Under the pieces are notes generated by a model, which worked only from the letters and a program-made list of their open reading frames with translations, made no database searches and was not told where the DNA came from. Made by a program: the position numbers and the translations under genes. From assembly GCA_027334565.1 (NCBI GenBank), contig DAHWUP010000006.1:1-46620 (forward strand): a stretch of DNA of 46,620 nucleotides. Direction: 5' to 3'. Shown piece by piece: positions 29,649-34,367 of the stretch; position 1 is the stretch's first letter; each line of letters opens with the position of its first letter. This stretch comes from Candidatus Levyibacteriota bacterium (GTDB lineage: Bacteria; Patescibacteriota; Microgenomatia; Levybacterales; UBA12049).

Positions 29649-29897
29649 CTAGTTGTCTCCCGCTTCGCCTCCAACATTGACTCTGTACCCGGGATGTAAA
29701 ATCGGTACGGGGGTTGAGGTGGGCAACAAAGTTGGTGTGCCTGTCGGCAATGTTTGTTTAGTTGCCTGGTTAGCCGCGTTCACGCCACTGTTATTGATTT
29801 TATTCTTAGGTTGTAAATTCGTAATCGTCTGAAGGGAGCTCAATAGTACAATCAAAGCCAAAAAGATAAATAGGGCAATAATAAATTTATTATTCAT
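29649..29897 (-). CDS. Small membrane-anchored or secreted Thr/Pro-rich protein
   Basis: The 82-residue protein has one N-terminal hydrophobic segment (FIIALFIFLALIVLLSSL) followed by a polar region with a Thr/Pro-rich linker (PTGTPTLLPTSTPVPI) and a short tail. The linker resembles those of the transglycosylase and the FMN-binding protein nearby. An extended -10 lies 7 bases upstream. Located just downstream of the electron-transfer genes on the same strand, but with its own promoter. Function unknown. Confidence 0.6.
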   Translation of the reverse strand: MNNKFIIALFIFLALIVLLSSLQTITNLQPKNKINNSGVNAANQATKQTLPTGTPTLLPTSTPVPILHPGYRVNVGGEAGDN

Positions 29898-29923: not shown

Positions 29924-31444
29924 TTAGACATATCCGGGAAAGAAGTCTTTTTTTATTTGTGTTCGTGGAACTCCCATCTTTGAAAGAAGTTCTTCATATC
30001 CTGTTACCATCGGATGGGGACCAGAAAGATAGAAGATGCATTTCTTATGGTCCGGTATAATTTCGTTGATCATCTCGGATGTGACCCGGCCAATTTTCCC
30101 CGTCCATCCCTTGGGAGCCGCTTTTTCATCGGTAAGGGTTAAGACGGTTTTTACGCCAACTTTTTTTGCTTCTTCCAAAACGTCAAGGTATGCGATTTCG
30201 GATTGGATTTTATTGGCATAGAACAGGACGATTGGACGATTCTGACGCGTATCAAGGCAGTATTTAATCATACTTCTAAAAGGAGTTATCCCTATGCCCC
30301 CGGCTAAGAAAACAAGTTTAACTTCCCGATCGTTAGGTAATGTGAAGTCGCCCGCGAGGTTTCCCGCAACAATCGGAGTGTTCCCGTCAAGGTTTATCAG
30401 CGCTTTCTTGAAGCTACTGCCCTGAGGATTAAATTTTACACCCAGATGTATCGAATCTTCTGTCGGTGAAGAGGCTATCGTAAAAAAGCGTCTATTTCCC
30501 CTGCTGTCGGGATCGGTATGAGGTAGGGTCCATTCCATATATTGTCCGGGCGAGAAGGTGAATCTCCCCGATGACGGAGCGAAGATAAAGTCCACCACGT
30601 CAGAGCCATATTGTACTTTTTCTTTTAAATATAAAAACAGTTTTTGCTTCGGGCTTACGAGATAAGAGAAGATATTGCCCGTAACAAGGGCAAGTTCGGG
30701 GGTTGAATAAAGGGTTCCAAGGTGGACGTGTGGAGAAAATAAAAACCCGACCAAACCACCGTAAAATAACCGCAGGTCTCTTGTCGGAGGGGTTGTGAAC
30801 GGTTCGGTCAACATGATAAACGCAAAGAACAGCATAGATGAATGGAAAACAAGAGTGGTAAGTGTATTTAACATATTTCCTCCGAAATACAGGGTGAAAA
30901 AAGCTTCGGTGGCAAAAGCGACAAGGAAAAAAGATAATGCCATATCTTCGCGTCGGATTTTCCTGATTATCAAGATTCCGATAGCCAAGATAAAAGGCGT
31001 CATAGCCGTTGTGCCCAACCACCAGTTTGCGGAATCGCCTAACCAGAGAGCGGTCAAAGCTACCGCAATAGCTACGGGATTAAAAATGTGCTTGCGATTG
31101 ATCGCTAAAATATATTTTGACGACATCGCAAGAACGGGAGCCCAGAAAAGGATCAGAAGATCATTAATGCCTCTAAAGGGTGGAACAATAAGGACCAGGA
31201 TAAGGGCTGTTATATACGCGGACTCCACATTCGTCGGTGCGTTGAAAACAATTGAAAATATACCGTTGGTAACCATGGCTAAAAAAAGAATGAAAGCGGT
31301 AGAAAAAAGAATCGAGCCGGGAGAATAAGGCAAGATATTTAAAAATCCGAACAGTATGGCAATTAACACCAGCGCGATCAACCCATACAGTACCAACCGG
31401 TACATAGTGATGCGATCAAGGATATTATCTATAATCTTAGTCAT
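29924..31444 (-). CDS. RnfD/NqrB-like membrane domain fused to FAD/NAD(P) ferredoxin-type reductase
   Basis: Residues 1-270 form about nine membrane spans resembling RnfD/NqrB (SAYITALILVLIVPP, RKHIFNPVAIAVALTAL, MLTEPFTTPPT). Residues 275-506 form an FNR module: FAD-binding RRFFTIASSP (318-327), NAD(P)-binding FLAGGIGITPFRSM (379-392), FYLSGPHPM (471-479) and the terminal FFPGY. The RnfD flavinylation motif (SGAT type) is absent from the membrane part. The likely role is to take electrons from cytosolic NAD(P)H via FAD and pass them across the membrane. It is the second gene of an operon, starting 1 base after the stop of an extracytoplasmic FMN-binding protein, the probable acceptor. Fusions of this type are known in bacteria including CPR, but this pathway in CPR is poorly characterised. 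Confidence 0.85.
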   Translation of the reverse strand: MTKIIDNILDRITMYRLVLYGLIALVLIAILFGFLNILPYSPGSILFSTAFILFLAMVTNGIFSIVFNAPTNVESAYITALILVLIVPPFRGINDLLILFWAPVLAMSSKYILAINRKHIFNPVAIAVALTALWLGDSANWWLGTTAMTPFILAIGILIIRKIRREDMALSFFLVAFATEAFFTLYFGGNMLNTLTTLVFHSSMLFFAFIMLTEPFTTPPTRDLRLFYGGLVGFLFSPHVHLGTLYSTPELALVTGNIFSYLVSPKQKLFLYLKEKVQYGSDVVDFIFAPSSGRFTFSPGQYMEWTLPHTDPDSRGNRRFFTIASSPTEDSIHLGVKFNPQGSSFKKALINLDGNTPIVAGNLAGDFTLPNDREVKLVFLAGGIGITPFRSMIKYCLDTRQNRPIVLFYANKIQSEIAYLDVLEEAKKVGVKTVLTLTDEKAAPKGWTGKIGRVTSEMINEIIPDHKKCIFYLSGPHPMVTGYEELLSKMGVPRTQIKKDFFPGYV

Positions 31445-31445
31445 T

Positions 31446-31952
31446 TTAATGCGCTTGTGCCAGAGCCGAAGCGAGTGACGCCTGGAAGGCCTGGCTTGTA
31501 TCCGACGCTCCGGACACGATGTCCACTTGGGCAGATTGTGCCTGAATTGCTTCTTGTTTGAGATAGGGCATTGCCTGTGTATTTATTGCAATCGAAGTGC
31601 TTCTGTCATTGGGATATTGTAAAAAAACCACGTCCGTTATTCTCCCCCCGCCAATAACCACCTGTATTTGAACATTTCCGTAAAATGCATCCGCAACGCT
31701 CCCGGTATAAGTACCGTCTTTATATTGACCCTGCGAAGTCGGAGGCGTGGTTGATCCGCTCGCCTGGGTAGTTGTAGGAGTTGACTGTGAAGACGGATTT
31801 CCCAGACTGTTTTGCGTAGAGCCAGTAACCTGGTTATTTGCGTTCTGCGGCGGCGGAATAGTTAAGGGGGTGGAATTCGCCAACTCTTGCCTCAATAATC
31901 CGTTAACAATAAACAAGCCTATCACAAACGTGGAAAGTAGTAGTTTTTTCAT
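31446..31952 (-). CDS. Exported FMN-binding (flavinylated) electron-transfer protein
   Basis: The start is the ATG at 31952 (MKKLLLSTFVIGLF), preceded by a GAGG ribosome-binding site, giving 168 residues. An N-terminal signal/anchor is followed by a Ser/Thr/Pro/Gln-rich linker (to about residue 80) and an FMN-binding domain of the NqrC/RnfG type (KDGTYTGSVADAFYGNVQ). The flavinylation motif near the end reads DIVSGASDTS, so the residue that would carry FMN is Ser rather than the usual Thr of SGAT. ApbE transferase, which would attach FMN, is not in this window. With the RnfD-FNR fusion 1 base downstream it forms a transmembrane electron-export module; the final acceptor is unknown. Confidence 0.85.
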   Translation of the reverse strand: MKKLLLSTFVIGLFIVNGLLRQELANSTPLTIPPPQNANNQVTGSTQNSLGNPSSQSTPTTTQASGSTTPPTSQGQYKDGTYTGSVADAFYGNVQIQVVIGGGRITDVVFLQYPNDRSTSIAINTQAMPYLKQEAIQAQSAQVDIVSGASDTSQAFQASLASALAQAH

Positions 31953-32177
31953 ATAAAACCTCAGGATAAAAAATCTTTTATAAGTATACATTTTTTTAGC
32001 GACAATAACCATGTTTTAGGCCGTGAATATAAGTGAAATAAAATCTTATAAAAACCGATCTTTTCATGAATAGCCGGTTTATTGCGCAGGATCTATAAAA
32101 CGAAATACAAGGTTTTTAGCCCCAGCTTTGAATTATTGAAATATAGTGAGATAATAAAACCGGAGCGGAAAGTTTTT

Positions 32178-32831
32178 ATGAATAATCCAGTAAGTGGTGA
32201 AGCGGAAAAATTTCAATTAGGGCATCATATTTGTTCCATATTTAATACAAACGAGCAGCAGTTTTTGCCATTAATTTCTTTTTTCAACGAAGGTTTAACT
32301 TCCAAACAAAAATGTTTATATATTCTTGGCGCACAGACAGCATACGATGTTATTAACGAATTTGATTCAAGAGGGGTAAGGGTCAGGGATTATGCCGATT
32401 CCAAACAACTCGTATTCCTTACAAAAGACGAGACTTATCTAAGGGACGGATATTTCGAGGCGGATAAGATGATATCGATCATAAAAAAAATTGAAAATCA
32501 AAGTCTTTCTGAAGGCTATACGGGAGTCCGGGGCAGCGGTGATATGACATGGGCAATCGGTGACCCCTTGGTTAAAGAAAAAATGTTCAATTATGAAATT
32601 AAATTAAACCAATTATTATCCGAAGGGAAAATAGCAGCGTTCTGCCGTTATGATGAGCGTAAATTTCCAAAGGAATTACTAATTAAAGCAATCAGGACCC
32701 ATCCTTACCTAATAATCTACGGAAAATTTTATGAGAATAAATATTTCTATTCTCCACCCGAATACGTTTCTAATGAGGATTTACCGGACGAGTCTTACGA
32801 AACGATTATAAGCTTGATAACGGAAAACTGA
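32178..32831 (+). CDS. MEDS-domain (DcmR-like) sensory protein
   Basis: The ORF-track start (TTG 32082) is unlikely; ATG 32178 (MNNPVSGEAEKFQLGHHICSIF) fits MEDS-domain proteins and gives 217 residues. Conserved blocks are HHICSIFNTNEQQFLPLISFFNEGL, CLYILGAQTAYDVI, and GYTGVRGSGDMTWAIGD. The MEDS fold resembles KaiC/RecA-like domains and is found in DcmR of methylotrophs and in methanogen regulators, where it is thought to sense small organic molecules. Here it stands alone, without a DNA-binding or kinase domain. A partner encoded elsewhere is likely. Confidence 0.75.
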   Translation: MNNPVSGEAEKFQLGHHICSIFNTNEQQFLPLISFFNEGLTSKQKCLYILGAQTAYDVINEFDSRGVRVRDYADSKQLVFLTKDETYLRDGYFEADKMISIIKKIENQSLSEGYTGVRGSGDMTWAIGDPLVKEKMFNYEIKLNQLLSEGKIAAFCRYDERKFPKELLIKAIRTHPYLIIYGKFYENKYFYSPPEYVSNEDLPDESYETIISLITEN

Positions 32832-32899: not shown

Positions 32900-32928
32900 T
32901 TGATTAAAAAGTGCTTGTCTGCTATTGT
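32900..32928 (+). promoter_or_regulatory. Promoter of the exonuclease/GIY-YIG gene
   Basis: TTGATT (32900-32905), a 17-base spacer and extended -10 TGCTATTGT (32920-32928), ending 11 bases before ATG 32940. It argues against the upstream TTG start at 32925, which lies inside the -10. Confidence 0.6.
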
Positions 32929-32939
32929 ATCCTGTGCCT

Positions 32940-34367
32940 ATGTTCCCAAAGTCTATTTGTTTTGTAGACGTTGAAACCTCCGGTATCAGTCCCAGGTTTA
33001 ACCGGATCATCGAAATCGGGATAATAAAAGTCGTTAACGGTAAAGTGGTTAAAGAATTCAGCAGTCTTGTTAATCCGGGGTCGTTTGTCGATCCTTACAT
33101 AGAAGGATTAACCGGTATAAGCAGGGATGATCTTAAGAGAGCACCATTTTTTTATGAGGTCAAAGACGAACTTCTGGAAATGTTCGAGGATTCAGTTTTT
33201 GCGGCTCACAGCGTCCGGTTCGACTACGGTTTTGTCCGAAACGAATTCCGCAGACTTGGTGTTAATTTCACAGCTAAGCATCTTTGTACGGTCAAACTCG
33301 CCCGGTTATTATATCCAAACCTGAAGAAATTTAACCTGGACAGCATCATCGAAAATTTTGACATCGAATGCAAAAGAAGACACCGGGCTTTGGATGATGC
33401 AAAAGTGATTTACAAGTTTTACGAGCAATCAAAGGCGGGCATACAGAAAGATTTATTCAACAAGGCTGTTATGATGGTATTAAGGCGCCCAAGCGTTCCG
33501 ATCGGTATTAATTCAACTGACATTGATAATCTTCCGGAAGCCGCCGGAGTTTACATCTTTTACGGCGATAACGGTTCCATTCTTTATATCGGCAAGAGCA
33601 TAAATATTAGGGAGAGGGTGCTGTCACATTTTTCCAATGACCACCTTTCCTTGACCGACATGAAAATTTCCCAGCAGGCAAGGTCGGTCGAGGCAATCGA
33701 AACAGCAGGGGAATTGAGCGCGCTTTTATTGGAATCAACCTTAATCAAAAATCACCGGCCATTATATAACCGGATGTTAAGGGATGCCCAAAAAGTAGTG
33801 GTGCTTTTAAAAGGTGCAAATGCAAAAGGTTATTCCACGGGTTCGAAGAAGATTTTAGACAAAGTCCCGGCAGAGCAAGCAACGAGCATATTGGGAGTGT
33901 TCCGTTCGGAAAGACAGCTTAACGATTTCTTATATAATCTCGCCAAGGAAAATAAACTTTGTCCTAAACTGTTGGGCCTTGATAAAAGCACCAAGCATTG
34001 TTTTTATTATCATCTGGGGCAATGCAACGGCGCCTGCTGTCAAGAGGAATCTAGCTTAAAATACAACCTTCGTTTCGAACAAGCATTTTATAAAACCAAG
34101 CTTAGACACTGGATTTTTGACAGCCCCGTTTTGATAAAAGAAAAAGGCAATAAAGAAGAAATACACCTAGTCGATAAATGGTGTTATTTAGGAAGCGTCA
34201 AAAAAGGTGAGGAGGGCAATATTGATCTGAATAGGGAATACCGCTTCGACCTTGATACCTATAAAATCTTGGTAAAATATATGATGAACCCGCGAAACCA
34301 GAAAAATATTTCGCCTTTAAGACCAAGGATAGCCGGCAGGTTCTCAAAAGTAACCTTAAATGATTAA
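32940..34367 (+). CDS. DEDDh exonuclease fused to GIY-YIG (UvrC-like) endonuclease
   Basis: The ATG at 32940 (MFPKSICFVDVETSG) gives 475 residues. Residues 1-165 form a DnaQ-type 3'-5' exonuclease: ExoI FVDVETSG (DxE), ExoII AAHSVRFDYGFV, ExoIII HRALDDAKV (DEDDh His). From about 195 a GIY-YIG domain follows (AAGVYIFYGDNGSILYIGKSINIRERVLSHF; conserved Glu in ALLLESTLIKNHRPLYN). The C-terminal region contains a Cys-rich CFYYHLGQCNGACC block like UvrC, but no UvrB-binding or RNase H-like nuclease half. Such fusions are known in Actinobacteria and other groups and are linked to DNA repair. A single gene with its own promoter. Confidence 0.88.
   Translation: MFPKSICFVDVETSGISPRFNRIIEIGIIKVVNGKVVKEFSSLVNPGSFVDPYIEGLTGISRDDLKRAPFFYEVKDELLEMFEDSVFAAHSVRFDYGFVRNEFRRLGVNFTAKHLCTVKLARLLYPNLKKFNLDSIIENFDIECKRRHRALDDAKVIYKFYEQSKAGIQKDLFNKAVMMVLRRPSVPIGINSTDIDNLPEAAGVYIFYGDNGSILYIGKSINIRERVLSHFSNDHLSLTDMKISQQARSVEAIETAGELSALLLESTLIKNHRPLYNRMLRDAQKVVVLLKGANAKGYSTGSKKILDKVPAEQATSILGVFRSERQLNDFLYNLAKENKLCPKLLGLDKSTKHCFYYHLGQCNGACCQEESSLKYNLRFEQAFYKTKLRHWIFDSPVLIKEKGNKEEIHLVDKWCYLGSVKKGEEGNIDLNREYRFDLDTYKILVKYMMNPRNQKNISPLRPRIAGRFSKVTLND

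Follow-up and report, generated by a model that had tools for sequence, protein, structure and literature searches.

A two-subunit NQR/RNF-like flavin system in a Levyibacteriota genome and its predicted NAD(P)H-to-outside electron route

CPR bacteria are thought to be fermenters without a respiratory chain, and with a compact route from NAD(P)H to the outside they could shed electrons or maintain a reduced envelope. A pair of genes in the genome of a Candidatus Levyibacteriota bacterium raises the question of whether such a route is encoded there, how its outside carrier would acquire its flavin and what purpose the route would serve. The stretch of DNA analysed here, hereafter the window, is 46,620 nucleotides long and represents an entire contig (C34) of a genome of 902,291 bases that is 93.9% complete.

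An FMN_bind gene next to an RnfD-FNR fusion

The features of the locus, all on the minus strand, are:

31446..31952, minus strand: FMN_bind (NqrC/RnfG-like) protein, 168 aa (PF04205, E=1.9e-7, above cut-off)
31503..31523, minus strand: flavinylation motif DIVSGAS, residues 144-150 (from the sequence)
31503-31505, minus strand: codon of the predicted FMN acceptor, Ser150 (motif rule, PMC12052999)
29924..31444, minus strand: complete gene of the RnfD-FNR fusion (506 aa), separated by 1 base from the FMN_bind gene upstream of it
30656..31444, minus strand: NqrB/RnfD-like membrane domain, residues 1-263, ten helices (PF03116, E=3e-7, above cut-off)
29939..30640, minus strand: FAD/NAD(P)-binding reductase domain, residues 269-502, predicted to be cytosolic (PF00175, E=1.9e-18, above cut-off)
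29649..29897, minus strand: small third gene, 82 aa (conserved in position and strand among orthologous operons)

A reading made from the sequence alone had described an exported FMN_bind protein with the motif DIVSGAS, followed after 1 base by an RnfD-like domain fused to a reductase; its coordinates were right, and both Pfam domains match. In the FMN_bind protein, a Ser/Thr/Pro-rich linker connects a hydrophobic N-terminal anchor to the FMN_bind domain at residues 91-164, and the charge pattern around the hydrophobic N-terminus is, from the sequence, positive-inside. A longer reading frame starting at 32012 lacks support, as orthologues begin MKK(I/L)(L/F)LS and a GAGG lies 6 bases before the start at 31952. 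The best solved relative found by profile matching is 8p2a (E=8.9e-17), a crystallised domain from a family of covalent-FMN proteins. DIVSGAS lies inside the FMN_bind domain and follows the D-x-x-[ST]-G-A-[ST] pattern of ApbE substrates and, because the published rule puts the modification on the last residue of this motif (PMC12052999), Ser150 is the predicted FMN acceptor. S-G-A-S is invariant across all three FMN_bind paralogues of the genome. Among relatives, the tally of motifs (n = 97) comprises 61 SGAT, 27 SGAS, 8 TGAT and 1 TGAS, which makes SGAS ordinary in the family; we therefore discarded the idea of a special acceptor site, and with it the emphasis that the sequence-only reading had placed on this motif.

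The reductase half of the fusion protein is complete: NCBIfam FAD/NAD reductase models span residues 273-502, and this half carries RRFFT, GSSFKK, AGGIGITP and SGP signatures, with no match to the Pfam FAD-binding model. Its fold matches in the PDB include the reductase domains of NqrF and flavohaemoglobin, with E-values to 3e-17. The fold search of the fusion protein was dominated by the reductase half and gave the membrane half no separate support; when the latter was compared with solved chains using a 20-sequence profile, RnfD (8ahx_D) was the sole match (E=2e-4). Together with the match to PF03116, this agrees with the earlier assignment of the membrane domain to NqrB/RnfD. The AlphaFold model of the fusion, based on 80 sequences, has a mean pLDDT of 91 and ten membrane helices. 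Loops on one side contain 3 (N-terminus), 3 (113-122), 4 (164-165) and 4 (reductase) Lys/Arg residues, and those on the opposite side contain 0, 1, 0, 0 and 0, so that by the positive-inside rule the reductase domain is predicted to face the cytosol.

The [ST]GA[ST] motif is absent from the membrane part in 110 of 110 full-length RnfD-FNR relatives, which bears out the earlier remark that the RnfD flavin site is missing. A short outer loop with Trp 141-142, which may be where the flavin-bearing loop of RnfD would sit, comes after a conserved HIFNP motif, and both Trp residues are invariant in 80 sequences. The pair of FMN_bind and RnfD-FNR genes was found again in most of 80 named loci, so their adjacency is not a matter of chance.

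The small third gene starts 26 bases downstream of RnfD-FNR, and its product has one N-terminal hydrophobic helix, a linker and a C-terminal ...HPGYRVNVGGE... segment (HPGYRVNVGGEAGDN). It is found at the equivalent place and on the equivalent strand in the L042 and L043/L013 operons, and a diverged version occurs in L132 (HPQFRINRNFGDD). With pN of about 0.28-0.39 and pS of about 0.72-0.79 (silent sites being near saturation), silent differences outnumber amino-acid-changing ones, so we regard it as a real gene, and one that probably belongs to the operon.

Elsewhere in the window, a gene for a MEDS-domain (DcmR-type sensory) protein at 32082-32831, divergent from the FMN_bind gene, encodes a possible regulator, and the gene at 32925-34367 joins a DnaQ-like exonuclease to a GIY-YIG nuclease of the UvrC/Cho type. 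In several CPR loci (L003:1704-2123 and the neighbourhoods of L060, L064, L065 and L108), small exported proteins of the DUF5666 type are encoded no more than a few kb from RnfD-FNR operons, often together with MacA/MacB-like export genes.

Genome context and energy metabolism

An apbE gene somewhere in the genome, on which the earlier proposal had hinged, was found in one copy on contig C22, where the operon reads FMN_bind (DAVSGAS), FMN_bind (DLISGAS), ApbE and RnfD-FNR. The RnfD-FNR proteins of the window and of C22 are 47% identical and lie in separate clades of a FastTree tree, which identifies them as old paralogues or separate acquisitions and not as a recent duplication. The window protein groups with five entries (four distinct proteins) with a support of 100, and their operons are likewise without apbE; G057 and G015, with window-type operons, hold an ApbE and a second RnfD-FNR elsewhere, like the window genome. 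The earlier description of a two-gene module held in part: its route from NAD(P)H to the outside in two polypeptides is the one proposed in print for this architecture, whereas the unit needs ApbE from another operon and its small third gene is conserved as well.

COX1, cytochrome bd subunit I and NuoH had no match in the window genome, an absence that at 94% completeness is likely but not certain and that supports the earlier suggestion of a missing respiratory chain. Fermentation is indicated by a NiFe hydrogenase and a 2-oxoacid:ferredoxin oxidoreductase on contig C11, together with a ligase-reductase fusion. The hydrogenase small and large subunit genes and a probable maturation protease gene are located at L011:3001-5161, with a 223-aa reductase-like protein nearby (L011, G000:C11). 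The 958-aa fusion (L011:10416-13292, G000:C11), in which an ADP-forming acetyl-CoA ligase is extended at its C-terminus by an FAD/NAD reductase, adjoins the oxidoreductase, and reductase-bearing frames of similar length occur in the relatives G028 and G069.

A predicted route from NAD(P)H to outside FMN

On the basis of sequence, we consider it highly probable that the window operon moves electrons from NAD(P)H to an FMN outside the membrane. The cytosolic reductase domain would oxidise NAD(P)H and pass the electrons to FAD, from which they would reach a flavin held non-covalently in the RnfD-like membrane domain, then the covalent FMN on Ser150 of the anchored outside FMN_bind protein, and finally an acceptor outside the cell. 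The ApbE encoded on C22, being the only one in the genome, would attach FMN in trans to all three FMN_bind proteins. Flavinylation, the direction of the electrons, the non-covalent membrane flavin and the outside acceptor are what we infer here; the anatomy, homology, predicted topology, presence of ApbE and co-occurrence are shown by the analysis. Because the cell appears to be fermentative and a respiratory chain was not detected, the likeliest use is to dispose of excess reductant or to keep groups or metals of the cell wall reduced, and not ion pumping. Two observations count against the mechanism: most published ApbEs are periplasmic whereas the ApbE here lacks an export signal, and there are relatives with RnfD-FNR but no FMN_bind. 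Among neighbouring genes, none recurs tightly enough in the compared loci to be an acceptor candidate; ABC/RND export, two-component, sigma factor and MsrA/B genes were considered as such, and none is tightly linked.

The homology of the membrane domain to RnfD might also be explained by an Rnf/Nqr complex that is incomplete or vestigial and continues to pump ions with subunits encoded elsewhere. We hold this to be very improbable: the reductase and the RnfD-like domain form a direct fusion, neither copy in the window genome has another Rnf/Nqr gene beside it, the covalent-flavin motif is gone across the whole RnfD-FNR family, and the two- or three-gene unit stands alone in CPR, in Chloroflexota and on a Mesorhizobium plasmid. 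An inward flow, in which a donor outside the cell feeds electrons to the outside FMN protein and NAD(P)H is generated by the reductase, would be compatible with a reductase fold that is reversible in principle and with the attachment of many CPR to hosts, but published models propose the outward direction and no outside donor partner is encoded nearby, which makes it very unlikely.

Instead of being a sink for fermentation electrons, the system could also act as a maintenance reductase of the cell wall whose substrates there are disulphides, methionine sulphoxide or the ions of iron (ferric) or copper (cupric), a serious possibility that we place somewhat below an even chance. The Mesorhizobium operon has a gene of the VIT family (iron/manganese) in its vicinity, and VIT1 genes are reported in 6 published clusters (PMC8238504); MsrA/MsrB genes are found within several kb in some CPR loci, and an MsrA gene adjoins one RnfD-FNR copy without FMN_bind. 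However, none of these VIT and Msr genes recurs beside the clade of the window, and the associations vary from locus to locus and are not close.

Order of flavinylation and export

The outward NAD(P)H-to-FMN route would depend on ApbE, and the set assembled here contains 79 ApbEs from RnfD-FNR loci plus one on the Mesorhizobium plasmid, with the longest possible ORF taken for each. A hydropathy test found no hydrophobic segment within the first 45 residues in 77 of the 79 operon ApbEs, nearly all of which begin at the catalytic core (MKxTRxLMGMPITVEI). Their FMN_bind targets do have an N-terminal hydrophobic segment (89 of 96), with a mean charge of +2.1 before it and +0.1 after it, and neither RR nor a lipobox was seen in these N-termini. 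ApbE is typically a periplasmic lipoprotein, and a cytosolic form is known for a soluble cytosolic target (PMC12052999).

As the ApbE has no N-terminal export segment and its target has one, attachment of the flavin before export is suggested; either this is the case, or the export of ApbE is invisible to a simple hydropathy test. That the FMN_bind protein is flavinylated in the cytosol, ahead of its Sec export or in the course of it, seems to us close to an even bet, with a slight leaning against it. An ApbE working inside the cell would reverse the order usually accepted for these two steps and would make FAD outside the cell unnecessary. The missing export signal is not special to the RnfD-FNR family: among five plasmid ApbEs with other partners, a clear lipoprotein signal was seen in Parabacteroides only, and not in the other four (Rahnella, Xanthobacter, Pseudosulfitobacter and Celeribacter). 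Other ApbEs of Ktedonobacteria were set aside as a within-genome control for export, their ORF starts being uncertain and most having no clear signal. The mismatch in export between ApbE and its target goes beyond the published accounts that we found.

RnfD-FNR without FMN_bind or ApbE

Among 19 relatives with known context, ApbE is present in all 12 genomes with an FMN_bind operon and in none of the 7 with RnfD-FNR but no FMN_bind, counts that are not corrected for kinship. PF04205 overlooks divergent FMN_bind proteins, such as that of G042, which adjoins an ApbE; the counts of absent ApbE are unaffected by these misses. The state without FMN_bind requires at least 7 changes on the tree and so arose repeatedly. 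Full-length RnfD-FNR genes with no FMN_bind nearby are found in L122-L130 (G013, G056, G034, G037, G035, G020, G021, G049 and G063), and also in L053, L084, L095, L106 and L112. In nine of these genomes FMN_bind gave no match anywhere, ApbE is absent in 7 of 7 tested, and some near-complete relatives have RnfD-FNR with neither FMN_bind nor ApbE.

The neighbours of such copies vary and include cupredoxin (beside two of them), MsrA, Nramp, a copper ATPase and a CsoR-like protein. By profile, cupredoxin adjoins 2 of 16 RnfD-FNR copies without FMN_bind versus 1 of 76 others, which is suggestive only, and we did not adopt it as the replacement for the FMN_bind carrier. Some CPR lineages may have dropped both the flavinylated carrier and ApbE, with RnfD-FNR acting alone or with another outside carrier, for example cupredoxin, which raises the question of whether the outside FMN protein is always needed. 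The occurrence of RnfD-FNR without FMN_bind and ApbE in relatives is a second point that goes beyond the published accounts found.

Beside longer ApbEs (about 290 aa), FMN_bind-like proteins carry a conserved (S/A)GSS in place of SGA(S/T), possibly a variant flavinylation motif:

L036:3972-4517, FMN_bind-like protein with (S/A)GSS
L041:93-617, FMN_bind-like protein with (S/A)GSS
L085:5534-6052, FMN_bind-like protein with (S/A)GSS
L117:5518-6069, FMN_bind-like protein with (S/A)GSS

Comparison with known systems

A 2021 survey defined NQR/RNF-like systems by the presence of PF03116 and PF00175 in one protein near a flavinylation gene, that is, within five genes of FMN_bind or ApbE, at least one of them with an export signal (SignalP); it reported 127 such clusters, chiefly from Actinobacteria and CPR, for which a one-way flow from NAD(P)H to the outside was put forward (PMC8238504). 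The complex of Ktedonobacter racemifer, whose loci L059 and L071 are among our matches, was modelled in 2024: it does not conserve the flavin site of the RnfD type, and in the model a non-covalent flavin site of the membrane subunit could be reached by the outside FMN (PMC10979944). By its sequence, the window pair belongs to this published two-subunit system. PF03116 and PF00175 occupy the N- and C-terminal parts of one protein, the FMN_bind gene 1 base away has a hydrophobic, positive-inside N-terminus, and the motif and the genome-encoded ApbE predict covalent FMN on the FMN_bind protein. Earlier work had already described the architecture, reported it in CPR and noted that the RnfD flavin site is missing (PMC8238504; PMC10979944). 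The window shares with these systems the NqrC/RnfG-like FMN_bind protein and the NqrB/RnfD-like domain fused to a PF00175 reductase; it differs in that its copy has a small third gene and no apbE of its own, and in that the sole apbE of its genome sits in a second copy, alongside two FMN_bind genes. A complete FMN_bind-ApbE-RnfD/FNR operon on a plasmid of Mesorhizobium sp. B2-1-1 (L155:797-7705) indicates that the unit has spread outside CPR and Chloroflexota; this operon adjoins VIT-family, cytochrome b and two-component genes.

With Rnf (RnfABCDGE) and Na+-NQR, the window system has in common an RnfD/NqrB-like membrane domain, an RnfG/NqrC-like protein with a flavinylation motif and an NqrF-like reductase domain. 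Unlike them, it has a single transmembrane path where they have two, iron-sulphur subunits were seen in neither copy of the window genome, and its membrane subunit has no covalent flavin motif; for these reasons it probably does not pump. The six-subunit set with RnfA/E (NqrD/E) does not adjoin either copy, and the covalent FMN site of RnfD/NqrB is lacking in the 110 relatives.

A survey of acid-mine CPR detected FmnB (ApbE) in over half of the genomes and no EetA, EetB or PplA, and left this unexplained (PMC12153355). RnfD-FNR operons are a likely reason for this pattern, because their ApbE would be counted as FmnB. As in the Gram-positive Ndh2-DMK-EetAB-PplA-FmnB route, electrons in the window system are predicted to end on an FMN-bearing exported protein, and there is a weak NCBIfam match to PplA (E=5.7e-4); unlike in that route, the reductase and the membrane carrier form one polypeptide, and a quinone step would be unneeded.
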